A stretch of 45,570 nt of DNA, taken from positions 1-45,570 of the forward strand of contig JAAXKN010000036.1 of NCBI GenBank assembly GCA_025612375.1. Direction: 5' to 3'. Below the pieces are notes generated by a model. The model was not told the origin of the DNA, searched no databases, and worked only from the letters and a program-made list of their open reading frames with translations. The first letter of the stretch is position 1, and every line of letters begins with the position of its first letter. The DNA is from Ignavibacteria bacterium. GTDB taxonomy: Bacteria > Bacteroidota > Ignavibacteria > Ignavibacteriales > SURF-24. Positions 14,041 through 43,482 of this stretch are shown here, in pieces. The translations under genes and the position numbers were made by a program.

Positions 14041-15517
14041 TAGTTTTCACTCCCTTCGGTTTCTTAGGTTTAAATACTGCACCATAGCCATATATGGTGA
14101 CGGGTTCGTCTATAACATCGTGGCGAATAGTAATTTCCAATCGGTCACACTTATGACCGTTTAGGTCAATCTGTTTCTTTACAATATCCTCAAAATCGAA
14201 GAGATTGTCATCCCAATCACTAATATCCCAAAACCCACTCTCATCAATCCGGACACCTTTAGACACCTTGTAGTAACCGAGGGAGATATCTACCTCGACG
14301 TAACAACTTTCCCCCTCATACTGTCTTGCCAGTAGTAGGATAGATTTCAACTTCTTGATACGGAATGAATCATCAAGATTGAGTCTATGTTTGGCTTGCA
14401 TAACAATGGGGATGCCATCATCGTTGTCTCCTTGAAACGCTTTGTAAATCATACCAGTACTTGCCGAAGCGAAGTAGAGATCATCATTATCGTCCTTGAA
14501 CCAATCGGCCACAGACCATCCCCTATACAGCGTCCAAGGAAAGGACCTCAATGAGATCGTCTCATCTCCTTGAAATGCCATAGTCACATAGCCCTTAAGT
14601 ACAAGGTTGTTTATACCTGAACCGTCATCACAACAGGCCAGATAATAACAACCCCTATAGTATACACCCACAGCTTTATCCCGATTGGTTAACGTCTCTA
14701 TGATGTCAGTTACACCAGTAGATACCTTCATGGTACTTATGACATCCTTTTCAGTAGACACTAGGGCTACAATAGCGTCATCACCCAGATATAACAAGTA
14801 ATCCTCTGCAGCACATACACTACGGGGGGATTGGGTACCATCATGTACCCTAAGAGGATGAAACTCCACATCCGTAGTCGGATCCCAGCCAGTCCAAGCA
14901 TATACACTATTTCTCTTGAAGATAATAAGAGCATCACCATAGAGAGCTGCAGCCACAGGATTGTACAGGTCAGTCGATAGAGCCCTTATGGCCTGGGAGG
15001 CCGTAAAGTTATTAGGTTCTCCTGTTGCAGAGAAATATATGTTGTTAGTGTTATCCCCCATAGCGAACATTCTCTGTCCACGTTGAATCAGTAACTTACA
15101 GTTCTTCACGTTAGTTAGGTCAGCGCTGGTTGCGGGAGTTACTTCAGCAATGGTAGTACCATCATATACATAGTATTTGGTACCGTCCACGATGTACAAT
15201 TTCTGGTTAGTAAAGTATTCAACTCCTACATCATTTGAAGACAGTGTACTAAGTAATACGGTACCATCCCATTTGACCAATTTTTTATCTATAATAGCTA
15301 AATTCATACCCGGATATTTTATCAATCGGGAGATACCTGTTGTCCCCAGAGGAGTAACAAGTGCCTTTATGCAACCTTTTCGTTGTGAATATCCACCCCT
15401 TACCATTAAATCAACATTCTGGGCTTCTCTCATCTCAGAGGCTAACAGGGAATCAGCTGAAGCCGTGCCATTCCGGCCACGGTTAAAGTTGATATAGGCG
15501 GTCAATCTTTTAGACAT
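14024..15517 (-). CDS. Tail hub / head-completion protein (P22 gp10-like)
   Basis: This 497-residue, beta-rich protein opens with an N-terminal segment ending NVDLMVRGGYSQRKG. Repeated short strands with W-D-G and Y-D-G turns follow (VKWDGTVL, KYYVYDGTT), as in beta-propeller-like stabilisation proteins of P22-type necks. It directly follows the adaptor gene, as gp10 follows gp4 in P22. I chose ATG 15517, preceded by GGAGG 9 bases upstream; an earlier in-frame start would add 17 residues. It overlaps the adaptor gene by 8 bases. The similarity is by pattern and gene order, not by a search. Confidence 0.65.
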   Translation of the reverse strand: MSKRLTAYINFNRGRNGTASADSLLASEMREAQNVDLMVRGGYSQRKGCIKALVTPLGTTGISRLIKYPGMNLAIIDKKLVKWDGTVLLSTLSSNDVGVEYFTNQKLYIVDGTKYYVYDGTTIAEVTPATSADLTNVKNCKLLIQRGQRMFAMGDNTNNIYFSATGEPNNFTASQAIRALSTDLYNPVAAALYGDALIIFKRNSVYAWTGWDPTTDVEFHPLRVHDGTQSPRSVCAAEDYLLYLGDDAIVALVSTEKDVISTMKVSTGVTDIIETLTNRDKAVGVYYRGCYYLACCDDGSGINNLVLKGYVTMAFQGDETISLRSFPWTLYRGWSVADWFKDDNDDLYFASASTGMIYKAFQGDNDDGIPIVMQAKHRLNLDDSFRIKKLKSILLLARQYEGESCYVEVDISLGYYKVSKGVRIDESGFWDISDWDDNLFDFEDIVKKQIDLNGHKCDRLEITIRHDVIDEPVTIYGYGAVFKPKKPKGVKTNVTNI

Positions 15518-24841: not shown

Positions 24842-24922
24842 TCAGAATGTTTCACGTGAAACAATGACGGCGGGAGCGCTAAAAGCCGTAGTTTTCTCAA
24901 CATTTTACATGAAATATTCTGA
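24842..24922 (+). repeat. Long-arm inverted repeat around the parS site
   Basis: The 13 bases at 24842-24854 can pair with 24910-24922 as RNA (one G-U pair). They enclose an inner ACGGC/GCCGT hairpin at 24867-24889. The left arm overlaps the parS half-site, so the DNA site lies in a region that can also fold as RNA. The rest of the intergene to 24990 is AT-rich with one small TTGCC/GGCAA hairpin. Confidence 0.6.
24848..24863. other. parS: parS centromere-like site (perfect 16-bp match)
   Basis: TGTTTCACGTGAAACA is a perfect palindrome and matches the bacterial parS consensus bound by Spo0J/ParB (TGTTNCACGTGAAACA in Bacillus subtilis). It lies in an intergenic region, not in a coding sequence. 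No ParA or ParB gene is in the window, so any use would rely on the host proteins. Confidence 0.85.
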
Positions 24923-26253: not shown

Positions 26254-26552
26254 TGGACATAAGACAACAGTTTGAACACAGGTTGGGCAAATTGATTGAT
26301 GACATGGAGTCTGCCAATCTAGTACAAAGTGAGCAAATCAGTATACTCGAATCGGCTATAGAATCATTGAAGGCACGGGAAGACGATAAGAAGCTATACA
26401 AACCACGTTCACTACTCGGAGTTTTAATTGACTTAACATCTGACCTAGAGGAAGCTGATGAGATACTTGAAGAAAAGATTAACGAATTGGCTGAGACAAG
26501 CGAAACACGCAAGTCTTCGACCACAATACCACTCTCATCTGATGATGATTAA
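26253..26552 (+). CDS. Coiled-coil hypothetical protein
   Basis: This 99-residue protein is nearly all helix, with heptad-like stretches (EQISILESAIESLKARED and LEEADEILEEKINEL) and a Ser/Thr/Asp-rich tail. It is the last gene of its block, before a terminator. No family is recognised. Confidence 0.65.
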   Translation: MDIRQQFEHRLGKLIDDMESANLVQSEQISILESAIESLKAREDDKKLYKPRSLLGVLIDLTSDLEEADEILEEKINELAETSETRKSSTTIPLSSDDD

Positions 26553-26585
26553 CGTTCAATAAAATATCATATTTCATACGTCTAT

Positions 26586-26622
26586 GAAGGCATCCAGTTT
26601 CATTTTTGGATGCCTTCTTTAT
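26586..26622 (+). terminator. Intrinsic terminator of the 23.7-26.5 kb block
   Basis: GAAGGCATCC (26586-26595) pairs perfectly with GGATGCCTTC (26608-26617) around a T-rich loop, and TTTAT follows. The minus strand lacks a T-run, so it chiefly serves the rightward block. Confidence 0.8.
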
Positions 26623-26651
26623 GTATACTCTGTGTATTCATATTGTCAAAA

Positions 26652-26996
26652 TTATAAGTTAGCATCCCAGTTGCCCTCACATTCAGCTCCACGCTTACCT
26701 CGACACTCTCGCATAGTCTTACGCTTACCAGCTGGCTCATTCCCCCCGCTTCCAGCTGTGTATCTACCCCACACCTCCTCCAGGTACACTTCACGGATGG
26801 CTCTACTACTCATTCCTCCCTGCACATCATTCTCATAACTCCTACTAAGCTCAGATTCTACTGAGTTAAGCTCCTTTTCGAGCTTATCCTCCCCAATCTT
26901 CTCTTCGAGCTTCGCTCTCAGCTCAGCTAAGCTACTCACTCCTTTGAACTTCAGTCTTCTACCATTCACTACAACCTTTAGCTCATCACTCATCAT
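26652..26996 (-). CDS. Hypothetical protein, end of leftward block
   Basis: The 114-residue protein starts with a ubiquitin-like strand-turn-strand (LKVVVNGRRLKFKGV), then a long charged helix, and ends in a basic Gly/Arg/Cys-rich tail. GGGGGTG precedes its ATG pair at 26996. I know no family for it. It is the last leftward gene before the convergent point. Confidence 0.6.
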   Translation of the reverse strand: MMSDELKVVVNGRRLKFKGVSSLAELRAKLEEKIGEDKLEKELNSVESELSRSYENDVQGGMSSRAIREVYLEEVWGRYTAGSGGNEPAGKRKTMRECRGKRGAECEGNWDANL

Positions 26997-27005
26997 CGCA
27001 CCCCC

Positions 27006-27095
27006 TTATTCTTCTGAATCACACAAAGCTAATATTATTACTATAGCACGAAATGCTAATGAGATAAGATAAATTACTAATCCTATTAGTTCCAT
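27006..27095 (-). CDS. 29-residue transmembrane microprotein
   Basis: The short frame codes MELIGLVIYLISLAFRAIVI followed by ILALCDSEE. It is a single hydrophobic helix with one central Arg and an acidic end. A strong AGAAAGGAG lies 7 bases before the ATG, which is why I call it real. Its size and shape resemble small membrane regulators or toxins, but no role can be assigned. Confidence 0.55.
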   Translation of the reverse strand: MELIGLVIYLISLAFRAIVIILALCDSEE

Positions 27096-27137
27096 TTTAT
27101 TTCTCCTTTCTCATTCCTCAACCGGTATCACACATAT

Positions 27138-27166
27138 ACATACACATATTATATATATGTGTATGT
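27138..27166. repeat. AT-rich dyad, candidate unwinding element
   Basis: ACATACACATAT (27138-27149) and ATATGTGTATGT (27155-27166) are perfect inverted arms around a TATAT-like centre. The segment is almost free of GC pairs and lies beside the TGTACA repeats. Confidence 0.7.
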
Positions 27167-27195
27167 GTATGTATGATTGATACAGTTTTTCATTC

Positions 27196-27341
27196 TGTAC
27201 ACAACTGTACAATTCATATTGTAACACTGTCATATCAACGTCTATACGGTTCACTGTACATCACTGTACACATTGATGAATTGTACAGCGTTATATGACA
27301 AAATTGACTTTTTACCAGCACCAAATTGTACAGTGTGTACA
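27196..27341. repeat. Seven TGTACA repeats (iteron-like array)
   Basis: TGTACA occurs at 27196, 27206, 27255, 27265, 27282, 27327 and 27336. Three close pairs are spaced 9 or 10 bases, about one helical turn. Each copy is a palindrome, so it can bind a dimer. The array lies between the microprotein and the tandem ribbon-helix-helix gene, with the AT-rich dyad next to it. A replication origin or an operator array are both reasonable readings. Confidence 0.75.
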
Positions 27342-27352
27342 GTGTTTTACGT

Positions 27353-27940
27353 CTATTCTTGTTTCTCATCGAGCCAACTCTCTAACACCTGTGCCATAAG
27401 CAGATTTGTGGTTTTGTTAAGACTCTGTGACTGCAGCTTATACTTCAGGTATACATCTGATGAGATACGGAGCGTTACTGACACATTATCTTTATTGCTG
27501 GCACGTGGCTTCTGTGGCTTCATTTCATCCCACTGCGACAAGACATCTGGGTCATATTCTTTGATGTATTTGGCGAGGGTACGAATGCAAAAGCTTAGTG
27601 CTTTAGCGTCTGTGTTGAGGAACGTGGAGAATTTGTTCTTTATGTCATTCAGCTTAACTTCATTCTCATCTGTGAGTTCTACGTTGATACGTTTGTCTCT
27701 CATCACAGCATATGGCCCTTCCACAGACTGTTTGCCGTTCTTCATTACCTTCCTGTCTGGCATCTGGAGGTGGGGGTCTTCACGTTCTATTGAGACAAGC
27801 CGTTTGTTAGCAAGCATTAGCTTGTGAGTAACCATAACGGCGACATTGAGGTAGCCTCGTTTTGAGACTTGCCTCGTGCCCACTCTGATACAATGCCACT
27901 GTTCGACTCTTGTTGGGTTGAATGGTATTATTCTGCTCAT
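27353..27940 (-). CDS. Tandem ribbon-helix-helix DNA-binding protein
   Basis: The 195-residue protein seems to hold two RHH units. At about 95-135 RINVELTDENEVKLNDIKN leads to LNTDAKALSFCIRTLA. At about 150-190 NVSVTLRISSDVYLKYKLQ leads to LNKTTNLLMAQVLESW. Both begin with the alternating strand that reads DNA in the CopG/Arc/MetJ class. The N-terminal 80 residues are a separate basic beta domain. It overlaps the next upstream gene by 4 bases (ATGA). The TGTACA array just past its stop is the obvious candidate target. A role in replication control or transcription is inferred. Confidence 0.7.
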   Translation of the reverse strand: MSRIIPFNPTRVEQWHCIRVGTRQVSKRGYLNVAVMVTHKLMLANKRLVSIEREDPHLQMPDRKVMKNGKQSVEGPYAVMRDKRINVELTDENEVKLNDIKNKFSTFLNTDAKALSFCIRTLAKYIKEYDPDVLSQWDEMKPQKPRASNKDNVSVTLRISSDVYLKYKLQSQSLNKTTNLLMAQVLESWLDEKQE

Positions 27941-28218
27941 GTCTTCAACCTCACTGGTCTTGTTCTCCGTGCATACTGTGACTGTAACTCTTCCACCGTC
28001 ATCCAGTTATCTTCAGACAGGCGGTCATCTACTCTATCAGCTATTCTTGGGCCAGGTACACTGACCGCCTTGTCCTCTGTGAAGTACACTCTCCCCATGC
28101 GTACACTCTTTATAGTGATGACTCTACCTAGTTCGAAGTTGAGTTCTACACATTGACATTTGGCACCTCTCTTCAGTTCATACGGGTCACCTATGGGTAC
28201 TAATACTACATTTGACAT
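27937..28218 (-). CDS. Hypothetical protein
   Basis: I do not recognise this 93-residue protein. Its first half is beta-rich (NVVLVPIGDPYELKRGA and VITIKSVRMGRVYFT), its second half is helical and ends basic. AAGGAGGAG precedes the ATG. It is coupled by an ATGA overlap to the RHH gene, so the two may act together. Confidence 0.65.
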   Translation of the reverse strand: MSNVVLVPIGDPYELKRGAKCQCVELNFELGRVITIKSVRMGRVYFTEDKAVSVPGPRIADRVDDRLSEDNWMTVEELQSQYARRTRPVRLKT

Positions 28219-28231
28219 ATTATCTCCTCCT

Positions 28232-28792
28232 TCATAACGTTGGGAACAATGCTCGGGGTAATGTTAACCCCTCAGCATCGGCCTCATCGAATACCTCTCT
28301 CCACTCTTCTTTTGTCATCGTGACGGGCTTTAATGCCAGCTTTCTACGCTTCGCCCTTAGCTTTCTTGCCTCTCTTTTTTCTATATGTTCTCTGAGTTTA
28401 GCCATTGCCTCATCATGACTCATACCCCCTTGAATGTACTTATAGTACCTTATCTTGTTGGTGTCACTGAGTATATCATATTTGGCATCATTGACTATAT
28501 GGCATCCCGATGCTAATAGCACAGGATTGACTGCATACCTGCCGGGCCCTACCTTAACGATAAGGCCCATGCTGATATACTTAGCGTAATGACTAGTAGG
28601 TATGTTGTGTTTCCGTTCACCCACTAACACACTGTGTGGGTTGATTAAGTAATATAACTTTCTATGGTTTATTACGCCACCGTTTTGTAGGATAGCCATG
28701 ACGATTGATTTGTAATAGTCTTTCTTACCGCTTACGAATCTGGTGTGAGTAGGTGTAGTATACCATCCTCTCTCGTTTGGCATAATAGGCAT
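28232..28792 (-). CDS. Hypothetical protein with winged-helix-like region
   Basis: The 186-residue protein has a helical N-terminal half that ends in a wing-like turn (MGLIVKVGPGRYAVNP), as in small winged-helix proteins. A very basic helix follows (REHIEKREARKLRAKRRK), then an acidic helix (EEWREVFDEADAE). DNA or RNA binding is plausible but I cannot name a family. AAAGGAGG precedes its ATG. Confidence 0.6.
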   Translation of the reverse strand: MPIMPNERGWYTTPTHTRFVSGKKDYYKSIVMAILQNGGVINHRKLYYLINPHSVLVGERKHNIPTSHYAKYISMGLIVKVGPGRYAVNPVLLASGCHIVNDAKYDILSDTNKIRYYKYIQGGMSHDEAMAKLREHIEKREARKLRAKRRKLALKPVTMTKEEWREVFDEADAEGLTLPRALFPTL

Positions 28793-28917: not shown

Positions 28918-29961
28918 CTAATCCTCCTTCTTCAGCACTTCTTTAGCTAATTGCTGCCGTTGTTTACGTGTGGACTTTGGGATGTTAATATCATCAGCTT
29001 TTGGGTTATACAAACCAGCTTCTACGTCAGCCTTCATTCTTCTCATTTGATTCCTGAGCCTGTCAGTGTATTCACATTTGCCTCCACAGGAGAAGAAGAT
29101 ATGCGGGGTTGTTTGTTGTAATGGGAACCCTGCAGCCTTTTTATGTCCTCCTCCACCAAGTGACTTAGCCATAGCACCTACATCGACCTTTCCTCTACTT
29201 CTGACTGATGCCTTGTCCTTCCTAAAGTCTAATGATAGAACGTACTCCAGTTCAGGTATTGCTTTCAATATCTCATGGCATACAACTGACACATATCTAT
29301 CAGCAGCTAGGAGGCCATATTTGTTACCTTCAGCATCCTCTGCAACACTGACCTGTGCTAATGAGTCATTGATGTATTGCTGTTCCCATTCAGTGTCCAA
29401 TTGTATCAAGGCTATCTCTGTGTCACTCAACGTCACACTGGGTATCTGCAAGAATCGTTGGAAGAATCTTACTTGACCCAACAGTCCCAGCAATCGTGTG
29501 AAGTCTTTACTTACAGGTTTAGGTTCAGTGTCATGTCCCCAGGTGTCATAATCGTCAGCAATATCAGCTAAGTCTTTATAATCCTGAATGTTGAACTTCT
29601 CAGACAATAGTCGATACATTGCATGGGACGCTGAGAATGATATGTCACATAGTGCCCAAGGGTATTGCACACTCAGCCATTTTGCCGTTGGGTGATGGTC
29701 TACCAGGTCCACGTTGCCACGTACATTGAGCAATTCAGCTATGTCCTCATTTACAGACATGTCGCTAATCATTATTGGGGTATCCATATCTTCAGCTACT
29801 AGCTGCATAACGATCTCATTCACCTGGTCATACTCCACGAAGTACACCTGTGTACCTGGGAAGCACTTCGCATATAACACCGCACAGGTTACACCATCAA
29901 GGTCTGTGTGTGTTATCAATATCCTCTTTTGTCTTGGGTTTAATTCAATTACTTTACTCAT
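28918..29961 (-). CDS. DHH/DHHA1 phosphoesterase (NrnA/RecJ-like)
   Basis: The 347-residue enzyme has the DHH order: THTDLDGVTC (residues 17-26) with metal-binding Asp residues, DMSVNED, VDHHPTAKW (DHH at 88-90), and the C-terminal DHHA1 motif GGGGHKKAAGF at about 266-276. Family members break phosphodiester bonds in short oligonucleotides, pAp, cyclic dinucleotides or single-stranded DNA. ATG 29961 is chosen because GGGAGG precedes it and it overlaps the previous stop in ATGA. In this replication block it may recycle primers and short oligos; removal of cyclic-nucleotide defence signals is an alternative. Confidence 0.85.
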   Translation of the reverse strand: MSKVIELNPRQKRILITHTDLDGVTCAVLYAKCFPGTQVYFVEYDQVNEIVMQLVAEDMDTPIMISDMSVNEDIAELLNVRGNVDLVDHHPTAKWLSVQYPWALCDISFSASHAMYRLLSEKFNIQDYKDLADIADDYDTWGHDTEPKPVSKDFTRLLGLLGQVRFFQRFLQIPSVTLSDTEIALIQLDTEWEQQYINDSLAQVSVAEDAEGNKYGLLAADRYVSVVCHEILKAIPELEYVLSLDFRKDKASVRSRGKVDVGAMAKSLGGGGHKKAAGFPLQQTTPHIFFSCGGKCEYTDRLRNQMRRMKADVEAGLYNPKADDINIPKSTRKQRQQLAKEVLKKED

Positions 29962-30221
29962 TCTCTTCTTTCCTCCCTCTGCTCTAATATAGCTACACAT
30001 ACCGCCGCTATCTCTACCAGTTCTTTCTTTATCTTCGTTACATCTCCATCATCGTAATTGTACAATACCGCATTGATGGCCTCTCCCAGCTGGCCTACTT
30101 GTTTACCCAGTATAAGGTACCATTCAGGTAACGTATGGGGGTTATCCTCACCCCACTTCCAATCCTGATAGTTACGTTCAGCGTCTACTAGTTTGAGGGC
30201 TTCTTCTCTACTCACCGCCAT
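29958..30221 (-). CDS. MazG-like phage protein
   Basis: The 87-residue helical protein shows PHTLPEWYLILGKQVGQLGEA and later KKELVEIAAVCVAILEQ, the pattern of small MazG-like proteins common in phages. Those with full EExxE/ExxD motifs hydrolyse nucleoside triphosphates. Here the first motif is altered (KQVGQLGE), so activity is uncertain. ATG 30221 follows AAGGAGG by 9 bases. It overlaps both neighbours. Confidence 0.65.
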   Translation of the reverse strand: MAVSREEALKLVDAERNYQDWKWGEDNPHTLPEWYLILGKQVGQLGEAINAVLYNYDDGDVTKIKKELVEIAAVCVAILEQREERRE

Positions 30222-30354
30222 TTGCTCTTTCCTCCTTCCACTCATCAAAAGTCTGGGGCTCTAACCCTAAGGTTCTCATCTCTGTGCAGTAACCCCCGTA
30301 TAATTTATACAACTCCTGTTTGAAATCTTCATAAATCTCCTGTTTACTCTTCAT
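30208..30354 (-). CDS. 48-residue hypothetical protein
   Basis: The frame begins at ATG 30354 with GGAGGAGAGAGG just upstream. It overlaps the primase-helicase stop by 11 bases and the next start by 14. The product is charged and helical (MKSKQEIYEDFKQELYKLYG) with one Cys. Overlaps on both sides and the strong ribosome site support it as a real coupled gene. Function unknown. Confidence 0.6.
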   Translation of the reverse strand: MKSKQEIYEDFKQELYKLYGGYCTEMRTLGLEPQTFDEWKEERANGGE

Positions 30355-32290
30355 TACCTCTCTCCTCCTTATTCACAGTTTTCCATAATTCCCCAACTTG
30401 AATGATTAACCCTTTTGCCTTAAGGCTCTTCAATCTCTCCTTCAGTTGCTGTTTGCTGATACCTAGCGCCTCTTTTATCTCGGCCTCTGTGACACCAGCA
30501 TTACCTTTGATAAGGTCATAAACCGCATCATCATTGTTCTCGATGAAGTCAGCTATTTTGGCCTCATACGTCAATTCTCCAGGTTCACCAAATTTAAATA
30601 CAACGTCAATTTTTGCAGGTTTACTAAAAGAACGAAATTCACGTTCTACTGCTATCTCATGTTGTTCCTCATTGATGACCTGCGTGTACATAGCAGATTC
30701 AACCCACCCATGAAACAATACTGATCCCAGCATCCTCTGACCCCCACGGTCTGACTTACCATTCTTGTTCCAGTGGTGTATAACTATTACGGAGGTCTTA
30801 TACACGTACCTCAACTTAAGGAGCCAGTTGAGCATAGGCCTGATGTCTTTAGATGAGTTCTCATCTTTGCCTCCCATCATAAGGTACAACGGGTCAAATA
30901 CTATCAGCACAGGGTTGACTTGTTCAACTGTCTGCTCTAATGACCTACGGTCCTCCTCGTTAGTGAAATCGAATCCCTTGTTGTTCATAAAGCTGATAGG
31001 CAGTATTGGGGGCCACTGTACCTTGATAGTATGGTTGTTAACTACCTGTACCTTACCATCAAGTAAACCTCTACTGTTGGCAATCTTAGCTACCCTATCC
31101 TTAACCAACCACGGGTCATTCTCTTCCTGTATTACTAACACAGGCCCAGAATGATGCACTGGAAACTTATCCATGAAGTCTGTACCTGATGCCACACTTA
31201 CTATCATGTCAGAGGCAATGACAGACTTATATGTCTTAGGTTCGCCACTTATCATCCCGTGAGATGTTCTCTGCCAGATTCCTTCAATCATCCAGCCAGG
31301 TTGAGTTAGCTCCATGCCCATCAAGTCACAATAACTAGTCCACGACTTGTCTTTGTACTCTGTCTCTGTGGCCGATGGCTTGATTGTCTGAGCAGCTTTC
31401 TCAACTTCACCAACTATCCTTCTAGTCTCGTCTCTTCTACCTTTGTACTTGTTCCAGTTGCACGCTGCGACGAGTTTCACAACGGCATCCTGTGGCACTC
31501 CACTCTCCAGCAACTTACATTCAAGTTCCCAGAGTCTAGCACTTCTGTCCTCCAGTAATACGTCATCCTCTGTAGCAAACAATAGCTCCAGAGTCTTTGT
31601 ACCCAGCTTAGACAAGTAAGGTTTCACTAACTCAGGCAATAATGATGGCTCTGATTCGAGGATCTCCTCAGCGTCCAGCTCAGTTAATGAATCTACATCA
31701 TCCACATCAGGCAGTGACTCAAACTTGGTAGGAGAAAAGTGACTCTCATCATACCACAGTAATTGTCCTTTGGGTGCTCCCTCATATTTGTAGTTTCTTA
31801 AACCAGGAACCCTCAATACCTGTGTAAGGTCCCATCCTCCAGGATCTGCCCCAATGAAATATGTAAGCTTTTTGTTGAGTTTCTCCCCAACGTCAGAGGG
31901 GACAGCTTCTTTTAGATTCCAGATAGCTGCGTACCTTCCTGGAGAACTCTCCCATGCCATACTTGGTCTTAAGTCCTTCGGCAGTTTTTCAGGCTTTACT
32001 TCATCGAGGTCAGCATATAAGCAGGTCAATTGTCTAATGTTGTTCTTGGTTGACCTAGACTTTTGAAATACAGAAGGACACCAATATAGGTCATACTTTT
32101 TAGTTACACTATCTTTAACCCAATTGATGATTCCTTCACTGTCTTGAGGCCATTGAAACATCTTCTCTTCCCATGTACCTGCATGATTCTTCGGTCCTTT
32201 AGGGCTCGAGGTACTTCTTAATTTACGAGGTAGTCTAACCCATCCTTTTTGATTACCCCACACTTTAAAGATGGTATTAACCCCACTCAT
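30344..32290 (-). CDS. Primase-helicase (RepB-primase-like domain plus RepA-like ATPase)
   Basis: The 648-residue protein has three parts. The N-terminal primase-like domain has LYADLDEV (Asp-x-Asp at 93-96), ESSPGRYAA and GGWDLTQVLRVPGLRNYKY, an archaeo-eukaryotic/RepB-type pattern. A RecA-like ATPase follows, with Walker A SGEPKTYKS at about 346 and Walker B VLIVFDPLYLMMGG at about 458, like plasmid RepA. The C-terminal 55 residues form a winged HTH (AEIKEALGISKQQLKERLK). It probably opens the origin, unwinds DNA and makes primers for the phage polymerase. It overlaps the HTH gene upstream by ATGA. Confidence 0.8.
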   Translation of the reverse strand: MSGVNTIFKVWGNQKGWVRLPRKLRSTSSPKGPKNHAGTWEEKMFQWPQDSEGIINWVKDSVTKKYDLYWCPSVFQKSRSTKNNIRQLTCLYADLDEVKPEKLPKDLRPSMAWESSPGRYAAIWNLKEAVPSDVGEKLNKKLTYFIGADPGGWDLTQVLRVPGLRNYKYEGAPKGQLLWYDESHFSPTKFESLPDVDDVDSLTELDAEEILESEPSLLPELVKPYLSKLGTKTLELLFATEDDVLLEDRSARLWELECKLLESGVPQDAVVKLVAACNWNKYKGRRDETRRIVGEVEKAAQTIKPSATETEYKDKSWTSYCDLMGMELTQPGWMIEGIWQRTSHGMISGEPKTYKSVIASDMIVSVASGTDFMDKFPVHHSGPVLVIQEENDPWLVKDRVAKIANSRGLLDGKVQVVNNHTIKVQWPPILPISFMNNKGFDFTNEEDRRSLEQTVEQVNPVLIVFDPLYLMMGGKDENSSKDIRPMLNWLLKLRYVYKTSVIVIHHWNKNGKSDRGGQRMLGSVLFHGWVESAMYTQVINEEQHEIAVEREFRSFSKPAKIDVVFKFGEPGELTYEAKIADFIENNDDAVYDLIKGNAGVTEAEIKEALGISKQQLKERLKSLKAKGLIIQVGELWKTVNKEERGNEE

Positions 32291-32496
32291 GTATTATTGA
32301 CCCCCTTGTTTTTAGCGATTCTAGGAGCATCAGGCCAATCCTTGGGGAGTTTATCCTTGGGGAACAGCCATTGCCACCCAACTTTGATAGCGGTTAACCT
32401 TTTTGTCTCCGCTGCATATCTTATCTGGGTGTAGGTTTTGTTATATAATGCCATCACTTCGTTTAGCGTGAGATACTCATCTTTATCTCCGAACAA
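32287..32496 (-). CDS. Helix-turn-helix (excisionase/MerR-like) protein
   Basis: The 69-residue protein has YLTLNEVMALYNKTYTQIRY followed by AVKVGWQWLFPKDKLP-like sequence (AIKVGWQWLFPKDKLP), the HTH_17 pattern of excisionase and MerR-type readers. It starts the leftward replication block. I chose TTG 32496 since AAAGGAGG lies 7 bases before it; an upstream ATG would contain that ribosome site. It may help the primase-helicase load or control the divergent promoters. Confidence 0.65.
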   Translation of the reverse strand: MFGDKDEYLTLNEVMALYNKTYTQIRYAAETKRLTAIKVGWQWLFPKDKLPKDWPDAPRIAKNKGVNNT

Positions 32497-32673
32497 TTCA
32501 TCACCTCCTTTCATATTTCTATAATTTATTCATTTATATTATATAACATCGTCAATGACCTTGTATACTTTTTATATAAAATTTTTATAAAATAGTTTAC
32601 AAGAGGTATAACTCAATGATATAATTAAATTAATTAAATGAATGAAGTTAAAAATGATTAGGAGGAAAAGATT
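32497..32673. promoter_or_regulatory. Divergent regulatory region
   Basis: This very AT-rich gap separates the leftward replication block from the rightward one. A rightward promoter has TTTACA at 32596-32601 and TATAAT at 32620-32625 (18 bases apart). A TATAAT-like box on the minus strand near 32540 lacks a clear -35. TTAATTAAATT-like repeats near 32626 could be operator or melting sequence. Confidence 0.6.
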
Positions 32674-40504: not shown

Positions 40505-40985
40505 GATAAGTAGGGACGAGATGTTCATGCAGATAGCACAGATTGTAGCCCAAAGAGGTACCTGTGATAGAGCCTCCGTGGGGGCTGTTCTCGTCAACAA
40601 TAATAGGAACATAGTCGCCATCGGATACAATGGGGCCCCAGCTGGAGAACCTCACTGTGACGAGGTAGGTCATAAGTTAGTCAACAATCATTGCACTAAT
40701 GCTCTCCACGCTGAAGAGAATTGTCTGGAGGCCCTTCAAAAAAGTATACACTATGACCGGGACGGTTACCCCATAGGTATAACAGGATACCACTTGACGT
40801 TGTATGTAACTCACTACCCTTGTATGAAGTGTGTACATAAGGTAATCTCAGCGGTCAATGTAGGAGGGTTGCCTATTGGAAGAATTGTGTATCTACACCC
40901 CTTCGGGGACAACCCTTCAGTAAGACAGAAGTTGTTGAAAGGAGCTGGAATAAGCATTGAGCGACATATCAGGCCTGAGGAATGA
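40497..40985 (+). CDS. dCMP deaminase
   Basis: The 162-residue enzyme turns dCMP into dUMP, the substrate of the TS-like enzyme. The zinc site is H71-A-E73 with C109-x-x-C112 in HYPCMKC. The CDRASVGAVLV region and HC near residue 53 match the second zinc site of phage and Bacillus dCMP deaminases. ATG 40497 is preceded by CAGGTG; a GTG 3 codons earlier is possible. It overlaps the polymerase gene by 29 bases. Confidence 0.9.
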   Translation: MSRISRDEMFMQIAQIVAQRGTCDRASVGAVLVNNNRNIVAIGYNGAPAGEPHCDEVGHKLVNNHCTNALHAEENCLEALQKSIHYDRDGYPIGITGYHLTLYVTHYPCMKCVHKVISAVNVGGLPIGRIVYLHPFGDNPSVRQKLLKGAGISIERHIRPEE

Positions 40986-43482
40986 AAACTGTACTATGTG
41001 CTCCCTATGTGAGAATGCCGAACACGTCTGCCTCTGTGGCACCGGACCTGTCCCCGCTAAATACATGATAGTGGGGGAGGCCCCCGGGCTGGGTGAAGAC
41101 CGCACAGGATTGCCATTTCAGGGGCAGTCAGGTAAACTACTCCGTGCTACACTTAGAGCTATGGGCGTTGATGATAGTCAGGTATACATAACTAACACCT
41201 GTAAATGTAGGCCCCCAGAGAACAGAACACCTAGCAAGGAAGAGATAAAAGCTTGTTATACATACCTGAGTTATGAAATAGACACTGTTGAGCCTGAAGT
41301 AATTGTAACCCTAGGAAATTCTGCATTGTATGCCGTCACAGGACACTCAGGTATTAGTAAGTACAGGGGCAGTGAGCTCGAGAAAGGAGGGGCTATGGTG
41401 ATACCTACATATCACCCTGCCGCTGTATTACGCTCTCCCAAGTATACTAATCAGTTCAAGAACGATTTACGGAAGGCATTTGGAGACACGTCAGAAAAAA
41501 CTCAAAAATTTGAACCGGTAATTCATTATGTAATGAATAAAGAATCACTTAGAGAGCTAATTACGCACCTTCAAAAGGCCTCTAAAATCGAATTGAATTA
41601 CGGTGCACTTGACCTAGAGACAACAACATTTGATTATTGGAGACCCGAGACTAAGGTAATGTCTATGGGTGTATGTGTGGATGATGTACACACCTGGTCA
41701 ATACCTATGGAACACCCTGCAAGCCCCTGGAGGGGACAATCACATAAAATAGTAGCCCTTGTAAAAACCTTCTTGGTGGGTATGAAGTGGGTGGGTAATA
41801 ACTGGAAGTATGACAACAAGTGGATGAGAGCTAAGTATGGTGTAACTGTTAATTTTGGTCCAGACAATATGCTTATAGGTTACGCCAATGATGAGAATGC
41901 CCCCCATGACCTGAAGTATCAGGCGGCAGTACACTGTGGAGCTCCAGACTATGCCAAAGATATAGTATGGCCCAAGAAGTTTGACCCTGTGGTGGATGAC
42001 ATCAATAAGAAGGTGGCCGAATATCTAAAAATGGACCTCAAGAAGTTAATGAAATATCAGGCTCTTGACTCATACTACACACGGCAGGTATACCCTAGGG
42101 AAAGGGGCATACTCGTGAAAGATATGAGAATAGCTCGTATCTACAAACATCTACTTGAAAAAGGTAGTACGGTCTTCATGTATATCGAGGAATTCGGCAT
42201 GTGGATTGACCCCGAGAGGCTAGGGAAGGCCACAGAGGAATGTGTCACCAATCGAGATGCTGTACTGGAGAAGTTAAATAGCCTGATACCTGAGGGGTGG
42301 TGTGAAACTCATCTCAGTAAGAAACAACTCAAACAAGGATTCAACTGGAACAGTACGAAGCAACTCGGGGCATTGTTATTTGGTGAAGATGGATTAAATT
42401 TTCCTGTATTGCTCAGGACTGATAAGGGTGCGCCAAGTACGTCAGAGTCTGTGCTCATATCACTAGGAGCGGACATAGATCATCCTGTGCTTGAGGGGCT
42501 GATGGAGTATAGGAAGTGGACAAAGTATCTTAATACTTATCTTGAACCATGGAGGGCCAAATTAGATGAGAACGGTAGAATACATCCTACATTCAAGCTG
42601 CACGGAACTGTCACCGGGCGTCTATCGGGCGAGGACGGAGTGCATCAGGTACCTCGAGACAAATTCATTAGAAGTTTGCCTGGAGCTCCTGCCGGATGGT
42701 CCTTCTTTGAAATTGATGGATCCCAAATCGAACTCCGAGTAGTGGCAGCTGTAGCCTGTGAGAGGACCATGCTACGTATCTTCGCCACAGGTGGGGACAT
42801 ACATCGAGAGACAGCTGCTACCATAATGGGTGTTGACCCTAAGGACGTTGGGTACGATGATAGAAAGAAGGCAAAAGCTGTTAACTTTGGTTTTGTATAC
42901 GGTATGGGCTGGAGGAAATTCAGGCAATACGCCTGGGAGAAGTATGGTATACGTCTCACAGAGGCTGAGGCTAAATTGTATCGTAAAAGGTTCTTCGAGA
43001 AGTATCCTGACTTACCTGCATGGCATGCTAAGATGCGAAGACTGGTCAGAGCTATGGGCTATGTTGTATCACCTATTGGACGTAAAAGGAGACTTCCAGA
43101 CATATACTCAGTAGATGAGGATAAACAAGCATCAGCTGAGAGGGAAGCAATTAATTCACCCGTGCAAGGGTTCGGAAGTGACTACGTATTAGCTGCATTT
43201 ATTGACATGGTATTGGTAAAGATAGCACAAAAAGACCCCAACTTCGAAACCATACGTCCTGTGGGGGCAGTTCACGATGCCCAGTACTATGAAATTCGCA
43301 ACGATATGTTAGAGTATTGGCCCACAGAGATTAAGAAGAACTTTGATGACCCAACTAGATTAAGGAAGTGGTTCGGCTATGAACCTCCGGTAGCTATCAC
43401 AGGTGACTGTAAGATAGGGACACACTGGGGTGACGCTAAGGACTGGGAGCTAGGTCAACCACTGCCATTTACTCCGAGGTGA
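40957..43482 (+). CDS. Uracil-DNA glycosylase (family 4)-DNA polymerase A fusion
   Basis: The 841-residue protein has two enzymes in one chain. Residues 1-185 are a family 4 UDG: CTMCSLC, VGEAPGLGEDRTGLPF, TCKCRPPENRTP with a later Cys for the 4Fe-4S cluster, and YHPAAVLRSP. From about 210 a 3'-5' exonuclease starts (ALDLETTTFD, then QALDSYYT). The polymerase has motif A DGSQIELR (about 587), motif B KAKAVNFGFVYG (about 638-649, Phe at the sugar-selecting site) and motif C VHDAQYY (about 772), where the usual Glu is Ala. It starts at TTG 40957 since the cysteine motif lies close to the start and AAAGGAG is upstream; start confidence is moderate. It is the main replicase. Confidence 0.9.
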   Translation: MSDISGLRNENCTMCSLCENAEHVCLCGTGPVPAKYMIVGEAPGLGEDRTGLPFQGQSGKLLRATLRAMGVDDSQVYITNTCKCRPPENRTPSKEEIKACYTYLSYEIDTVEPEVIVTLGNSALYAVTGHSGISKYRGSELEKGGAMVIPTYHPAAVLRSPKYTNQFKNDLRKAFGDTSEKTQKFEPVIHYVMNKESLRELITHLQKASKIELNYGALDLETTTFDYWRPETKVMSMGVCVDDVHTWSIPMEHPASPWRGQSHKIVALVKTFLVGMKWVGNNWKYDNKWMRAKYGVTVNFGPDNMLIGYANDENAPHDLKYQAAVHCGAPDYAKDIVWPKKFDPVVDDINKKVAEYLKMDLKKLMKYQALDSYYTRQVYPRERGILVKDMRIARIYKHLLEKGSTVFMYIEEFGMWIDPERLGKATEECVTNRDAVLEKLNSLIPEGWCETHLSKKQLKQGFNWNSTKQLGALLFGEDGLNFPVLLRTDKGAPSTSESVLISLGADIDHPVLEGLMEYRKWTKYLNTYLEPWRAKLDENGRIHPTFKLHGTVTGRLSGEDGVHQVPRDKFIRSLPGAPAGWSFFEIDGSQIELRVVAAVACERTMLRIFATGGDIHRETAATIMGVDPKDVGYDDRKKAKAVNFGFVYGMGWRKFRQYAWEKYGIRLTEAEAKLYRKRFFEKYPDLPAWHAKMRRLVRAMGYVVSPIGRKRRLPDIYSVDEDKQASAEREAINSPVQGFGSDYVLAAFIDMVLVKIAQKDPNFETIRPVGAVHDAQYYEIRNDMLEYWPTEIKKNFDDPTRLRKWFGYEPPVAITGDCKIGTHWGDAKDWELGQPLPFTPR

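Follow-up and report, generated by a model that had tools for sequence, protein, structure and literature searches.

Gene layout of the phage contig

The window analysed here is an entire contig of 45,570 nucleotides from the assembly of an Ignavibacteria bacterium, and its first 55 bases are identical to its last 55, so that it is most likely a phage genome of 45,515 bp that is circular or was assembled as a circle. By Pfam and PHROGs scans, the segment from 23.2 to 3.5 kb is read leftward and carries genes for terminase, portal, head, tail fibre and lysis, while DNA polymerase A, a ligase, an SNF2-type helicase and nucleotide genes are read rightward. The DNA polymerase A (40957–43482) carries an N-terminal uracil-DNA-glycosylase domain and shares a gene block with dUTPase-, thymidylate kinase- and thymidylate synthase-like genes, which possibly points to an unusual base chemistry.

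The features of main interest, a CTGTACA repeat array and an AT-rich dyad, sit in non-coding DNA at the 3′ end of a leftward operon (Table 1). On the other side of the operon's first ORF, an HTH ORF, lies a divergent gap (32515–32673) with 82% A+T. At segment sizes of 60, 100 and 200 b, the least stable DNA of the contig is found there (32.5–32.7 kb), and the gap could be an early promoter region or an alternative origin site. Just behind the dyad and array there is also a second repeat cluster, GAGCTTAG, with six copies (at most one mismatch) around 26850, inside the 114-aa ORF.

Table 1. Positions of the array, the dyad and the neighbouring genes
Feature	Position	Strand	Basis
HTH_17-like small protein, first ORF of the operon	32287..32514	-	Pfam match below cut-off
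Primase-helicase	30344..32290	-	RepB_primase and AAA_25; C-terminal winged-helix-like matches below cut-off
ORF	29958-30248	-	operon member
DHH phosphoesterase	28918-30000	-	operon member
ORF	28232-28792	-	operon member
ORF	27937-28218	-	operon member
RHH gene, 195 aa, C-terminal RHH unit, candidate array binder	27353..27940	-	PHROG and L005 homologue
Seven-site CTGTACA array	27195..27342	.	motif positions
Nested long stem-loop	27195..27342	-	predicted fold
CTGTACA sites, minus orientation	27336-27342, 27327-27333, 27282-27288	-	motif positions
CTGTACA sites, plus orientation	27264-27270, 27254-27260, 27205-27211, 27195-27201	+	motif positions
TGTACA hexamers, first bases	27196, 27206, 27255, 27265, 27282, 27327, 27336		span 146 b
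AT-rich dyad, candidate unwinding element or hairpin	27127..27177	.	arms 27127-27149 / 27155-27177
Possible 29-residue ORF, strong Shine-Dalgarno, directly behind the dyad	27006..27095	-	by eye
114-aa ORF, kept in L005 behind the L005 array	26652..26996	-	homology
Terminator-like hairpin between convergent operons	26586..26617	+	sequence scan

The primase-helicase matched RepB_primase (PF16793, E 1.4e-9) and AAA_25 (E 5.2e-28) in Pfam. A search of solved structures with E up to 0.01 gave no matches beyond 3h25 (E 0.005) and 3h20 (E 0.008), both of them chains of Replication protein B (RepB′), so the primase is of the RepB′ type, as in RSF1010-type systems; at the same threshold no RepA structure was found, and the AAA_25 helicase part is a candidate RepA-type helicase. 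Asp94 and Asp96, presumably the primase motif, are invariant in six aligned primase sequences. Two overlapping samples, one with 163 genomes from the order and one with 394 from the phylum, contained no relative of this primase at E 1e-20 outside its own genome, and two scans of genome contigs, with the primase and with TerL, confirmed this absence of relatives. A 61-kb phage-like contig of the same assembly (C29; L180–L182) encodes a distant second primase-helicase, and in the 37 kb of it examined there is no repeat cluster comparable to the array. The phage contigs of this assembly may be host-carried or misbinned.

Repeat array, dyad and predicted fold

From the motif positions, it is clear that the seven TGTACA palindromes (27196–27341) form three pairs, spaced by 10, 10 and 9 b, and one single site, and that all seven share the 7-mer CTGTACA. 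Three copies of the 7-mer face one way and are followed by four facing the opposite way, so that the array has a turning point. The clustering is exceptional in the contig, since with the array masked no 146-b stretch anywhere contains more than one TGTACA, and a comparison of all 4096 hexamers revealed no other with more than five copies per 146 b. A first-order Markov model fitted to the array itself produced seven or more TGTACA in 0.035% of 20,000 draws. Seven paired TGTACA (gap of 3–7 b) occur in the whole assembly; besides the three pairs of the array, contig C2 has three and C15 has one.

The array starts 10 b behind the stop codon of the RHH gene, whose start codon overlaps the preceding ORF by 4 b; the primase-helicase gene lies on the same strand, with four ORFs in between. 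An earlier sequence-only reading had described seven TGTACA palindromes in 146 bases with three pairs one helical turn apart, an RHH gene directly beside them and a primase-helicase in the same operon, all of which we could confirm. It had also described an almost GC-free dyad. The dyad is real, with arms of 23 nt that are 91% complementary, and its 16-b core is nearly free of G and C (2/16), although the whole contains 12 G or C among its 51 bases (39 A/T) and the description was thus overstated. Its best position falls among the least stable 0.3–1.5% of the contig, depending on the segment size used, though it is not the least stable place. Clustered sites at helical spacing in non-coding DNA, with an AT-rich element adjoining them, are the features expected of an iteron-type origin.

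The stretch is also predicted to fold strongly. A 250-b segment over the array and dyad ranked first of 412 such segments on the plus strand of the contig. In the predicted nested stem-loop the outer sites pair with each other (27196–27201 with 27336–27341, and 27206–27211 with 27327–27332), the inner sites 27255–27260 and 27265–27270 pair together, and the single site (27282–27286) pairs with a degenerate site at 27243–27247. When the hexamers were kept fixed and the remainder was shuffled, none of 300 shuffles folded equally well (z −4.05 for the array and −6.4 for the dyad). When the hexamers were masked, the array alone showed no excess folding (z 0.05), meaning that the long stem in this contig needs the sites and their flanks together. 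Among 119 gaps or gap pieces from 32 primase loci, all of at least 110 b and delimited by a crude gene caller that split the corresponding stretch of the relative L005, the gap of the contig ranked third and the sole L005 piece included ranked 18th.

Related phages and the RHH protein

The IMG/VR contig L005 is syntenic with the window and keeps the order of RHH gene, repeats, large stem-loops, dyad and small gene. Identities between the two are 61% for the primase, 50% for the DHH protein, 38% for a DUF3846 protein, 27% for the RHH protein (E 7e-20) and 28% for the small ORF behind the array (E 1e-8). The equivalent stretch of L005 is 387 b long and contains no TGTACA; its repeat is TGTAT-like. 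TGTA occurs 22 times, 18 of them in one direction, where 9.3 would be expected; none of 5000 Markov draws reached that number, and several of the copies are 8 or 10 b apart. The inverted repeats of the stretch have arms 24 nt (88%) and 25 nt (84%) long, and just ahead of the next gene lies a dyad around ATGCATATAATATGCAT. With all TGTA/TACA masked, the array part of L005 still folds with a z of −5.0, so that there the repeats and the stem-loops are two separate features. A layout conserved while the letters have changed is the strongest evidence for the putative origin, as judged by sequence comparison of two phages and by tests on relatives that were made after inspection of the contig and hence were not blind.

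L005 also carries, near its small terminase gene (14272–14567), a TTGTATGCAAT cluster of four exact copies, three one way and one the other, with a fold z of −3.1; the corresponding part of the contig contains no TGTACA. This cluster outscores the one behind the L005 primase and lies beside the small terminase gene, so that repeats need not mean an origin. A packaging site is thought unlikely for the array itself, as the small terminase gene lies about 4 kb away. Five other IMG/VR contigs (L013–L017), with TerL 67–69% identical, start 416–1062 b upstream of the TerL match, which might be a genome end or an assembly break; a start repeat is common to L013 and L014, and the other three differ.

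We have also scanned 39 of 46 primase loci for repeat clusters (L029, L040, L045 and L054–L057, which are duplicates or cut short, were left out). By our count, with part of the clusters inspected individually, a clear cluster 3′ of the primase gene was present in five, namely the contig, L005, L008, L020 and L042, and absent from the other 34. The L008 cluster, TTCCGCAG, has an AT-rich dyad nearby and overlaps an annotated hypothetical gene, the L020 cluster (GCGAGA) has an AT-rich stretch further on, and the L042 cluster, ATCCGCAAACCC, is directly behind the primase gene; in L042, as in L005, it is outscored by another cluster. Strong clusters, possibly coding ones, occur elsewhere in other loci, e.g. 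L022, L025 and L026, and the L008, L020 and L042 clusters fold at chance (z −0.4 to −1.2). The full layout of RHH gene, repeats, stem-loops and dyad was thus found in one relative, L005, and across the wider family the repeat clusters behind the primase are only suggestive of an origin. CGAGGA clusters (L037, L039, L041, L043 and L044; the first, third and fourth were viewed) and an ACAACC cluster (L027, viewed) were set aside, the viewed ones resembling coding sequence for acidic or Thr-rich repeats. In L021–L023 a small single-RHH-like ORF lies immediately 5′ of the primase, with weak matches (E 0.014 to 0.37), those of L021 and L022 being below Pfam cut-offs.

The RHH protein of the contig had been read as a tandem of two RHH units. 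Its C-terminal unit gave an Arc-like PHROG match (E 0.0024), and the protein itself had no Pfam match at E 0.05. The L005 homologue scored 21.1 for RHH_1 (cut-off 20.5) and 23.3 for RHH_5 (below 26) as a whole protein, and its C-terminal piece reached both cut-offs (RHH_5 26.8, RHH_1 24.5). A C-terminal RHH unit is therefore supported by sequence matches, with the family cut-off passed solely through the L005 homologue. The second unit is putative: the middle region proposed for it has no RHH match, and two AlphaFold runs gave models (mean pLDDT 37 and 44) too poor to judge it. A PDB search with the RHH alignment returned mostly antibody light chains, taken as chance, with one CopG chain (E 0.56) among the 60 matches listed.

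Relatives of the protein are scarce. None was found at E 0.1 in 50,697 phage records or in 72,556 plasmids, nor, at E 0.001, among 95 further genomes close to that of the host; the L005 protein had none at E 1 in the phage records, and in IMG/VR only the L005 contig encodes a relative. It is by position only that the RHH protein is a candidate to bind the array.

A putative origin, its alternatives and known systems

From the repeats, dyads, gene order, primase family and layout in one relative, all of them observed, we infer binding by the RHH protein and an origin function: the stretch at about 27100–27352, at the 3′ end of the RepB-type primase/helicase operon, is a putative replication origin of this 45.5-kb phage, a reading to which we give an even chance and which draws on the distant relative keeping the layout with different letters. 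At such an origin, the RHH protein, encoded just upstream, would bind CTGTACA as dimers about one turn apart and bend or remodel the DNA; supercoiling together with this binding would open the AT-rich dyad, extrude the nested stem-loop, or both; the RepB-primase/helicase of the same operon would load on the exposed strand and prime there, and the phage's own DNA polymerase A would extend the primers. The RHH protein could additionally limit firing, and it may be a copy-control or architectural protein rather than an initiator. That it is a true origin-recognition factor, a RepC analogue that would coat the opposed iteron blocks on a cruciform-forming origin and hand the hairpin to the fused RepB-primase/helicase, with shape and site spacing rather than sequence conserved between relatives, seems to us unlikely.

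RHH proteins are mostly transcription regulators, and RHH dimers such as those of MetJ and Arc bind their operators cooperatively. An operator accordingly ranks next after an origin, as a possible but not a probable function: RHH dimers binding CTGTACA cooperatively could repress or activate a promoter for the 29-residue and 114-aa ORFs, or silence read-through of the operon, with the dyad as a second operator or a 5′ leader hairpin. The PHROG matched by the RHH protein is annotated 'Arc-like repressor', and the array is directly 5′ of these two same-strand small ORFs, the second of which is the one kept in L005. Two of the four promoter-like sites found fall on the minus strand within the stretch, one inside the array (27233–27204) and one before the first ORF (27121–27094), although the four in 26400–28200 are what chance would give (4.4 expected). 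Being 3′ of the RHH stop codon, the array is not an operator of the RHH gene's own promoter, and the CopG/Arc-type autoregulatory layout, with sites over that promoter, is not seen at the array. No dispersed regulon is apparent either, since the other 15 TGTACA of the contig are isolated and scattered, close to the mean of 15.6 in the shuffled whole contig, and the large stem-loops would be left unexplained. Where the sequence-only reading had offered an origin or an operator, the origin half has thus gained, through the L005 layout and the RSF1010-like RepB primase with AAA_25, and the operator half has lost ground through the position of the array behind the RHH stop codon and the promoter scan. 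GC skew, proposed there as a check, was mixed at third positions, slightly in the expected direction for plus-strand genes and opposite for minus-strand genes, which says little in a phage.

RNA stem-loops can be sites of processing of the RNase III type, and the transcript of the operon could fold into the long stem-loop and the dyad hairpin to give a processing site, an mRNA stabiliser or a leader of the small ORFs. The stretch folds well as RNA (z −6.57 in the contig and −5.66 in L005, against its own shuffles), a ribosome-binding site closely follows the dyad in both, and the sense strands have slightly more G-U pairs (20/206) than the antisense strands (11/196). However, the antisense strands fold equally well (z −6.51 and −7.12), single-stranded DNA folds as well or better (z −6.68 and −9.16), no Rfam family matched at gathering scores, and the directional 7-mers would be left unexplained. 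We consider an RNA element quite improbable, and the evidence, despite the slight G-U excess on the sense strands, leans towards a stretch that acts at the DNA level.

In plasmid partition, RHH adaptors on repeat arrays are known, and the RHH protein and the array could likewise form the partition complex of an extrachromosomal prophage. Plasmid-like upkeep is conceivable, as the contig is circular by its terminal overlap and contains an exact copy of TGTTTCACGTGAAACA (24848–24863), which we take to be the consensus of the bacterial chromosomal parS palindrome. A centromere-like array is nevertheless very improbable: no ParA or ParM family was found among the ORFs scanned (Pfam, PHROGs), the sole hint of a lysogeny gene among them is the HTH ORF, which weakly matches an excisionase (E 0.017, PHROGs), and the parS site would use host ParB rather than the RHH protein. 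The parS copy is within a larger inverted repeat upstream of a rightward early operon, and the phage may use host ParB there. Elsewhere in the assembly, parS with at most two mismatches occurs twice, both on contig C8 and one of them, by eye, between mnmG and mnmE; the TGTTTCACGTGAAACA palindrome is present in at least 120 IMG/VR stretches.

If the stretch is indeed an origin, it would offer a short, clonable cis element together with a candidate binder, tie initiation of the plasmid type, as in RSF1010 and pRN1, to phages equipped with a polymerase A of their own, and provide a case in which an RHH protein works at the origin of a phage itself; for related phages with a RepB-type primase-helicase, shape and gene order would then predict the origin. 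The putative origin is of a known kind, with iterons and a stem-loop; it stands next to an RHH gene, and the phage encodes an RSF1010-like primase. In the excerpts consulted from the literature on RHH proteins with origins, iterons or inverted repeats, we found no RHH protein described at a phage origin.

PcfF, an RHH relaxosome accessory protein, binds and bends the origin at oriT and recruits a DNA-processing enzyme, according to the excerpt of PMC6514445; it resembles the candidate role of the phage protein in being an RHH protein at an origin, and differs in that this is a transfer origin with a relaxase, whereas no relaxase family was found among the phage ORFs scanned. The PrpA antitoxin, in the excerpted account of PMC7848731, binds the origin iterons of pMBL6842 and sets its copy number. 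There, as perhaps in the phage, a small non-initiator DNA-binding protein meets short origin iterons with an AT-rich element alongside, but PrpA, according to the same excerpt, belongs to the PF03693 antitoxins and competes for iteron binding with RepB.

The orf56 product of the Sulfolobus plasmid pRN1 is an RHH protein. Like pRN1, the phage combines in one operon a small repressor gene (orf56 in pRN1) with a primase-helicase fusion, and the operon is followed by a large non-coding stem-loop, the shape of which is kept (here with one relative) while the sequence is not. For pRN1, the excerpted part of PMC4234260 reports a requirement for the orf56/orf904 operon together with a stem-loop of 100 nt behind the operon, the shape of which is conserved without its sequence, and a similar stem-loop in phage BIP-1; its authors note there that they have no direct evidence of an origin function of the stem-loop. 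Unlike pRN1, which has an SF3 helicase and an origin without iterons, the phage has AAA_25, with no SF3 family listed by Pfam in its primase-helicase, and a stem-loop with repeats; it also has four ORFs between the primase and RHH genes, and the winged-helix-like end of its primase-helicase stays below Pfam cut-offs.

The iterons of RSF1010 are longer direct repeats. The phage shares with RSF1010 oriV the primase family (PF16793, PDB 3h25/3h20), repeats, AT-rich DNA and hairpins, and differs from it in that primase and helicase are fused into a single protein, the 7-b sites form two blocks of opposite orientation, and the candidate binder is an RHH protein in place of RepC. At RSF1010, as given in the excerpts of PMC4434180 and PMC4234260, RepC acts on the iterons, RepA opens the DNA and RepB′ primes at ssi hairpins. 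Origins of the RSF1010 type have a short ssi hairpin with a GTG priming site on each strand. The phage hairpins are far larger, and a GTG lies in their loop region, where it may occur by chance. Taken together, by analogy, the putative mechanism would be a mixture of RSF1010, with its iterons and priming hairpins, and pRN1, with its RHH gene, primase-helicase and stem-loop.
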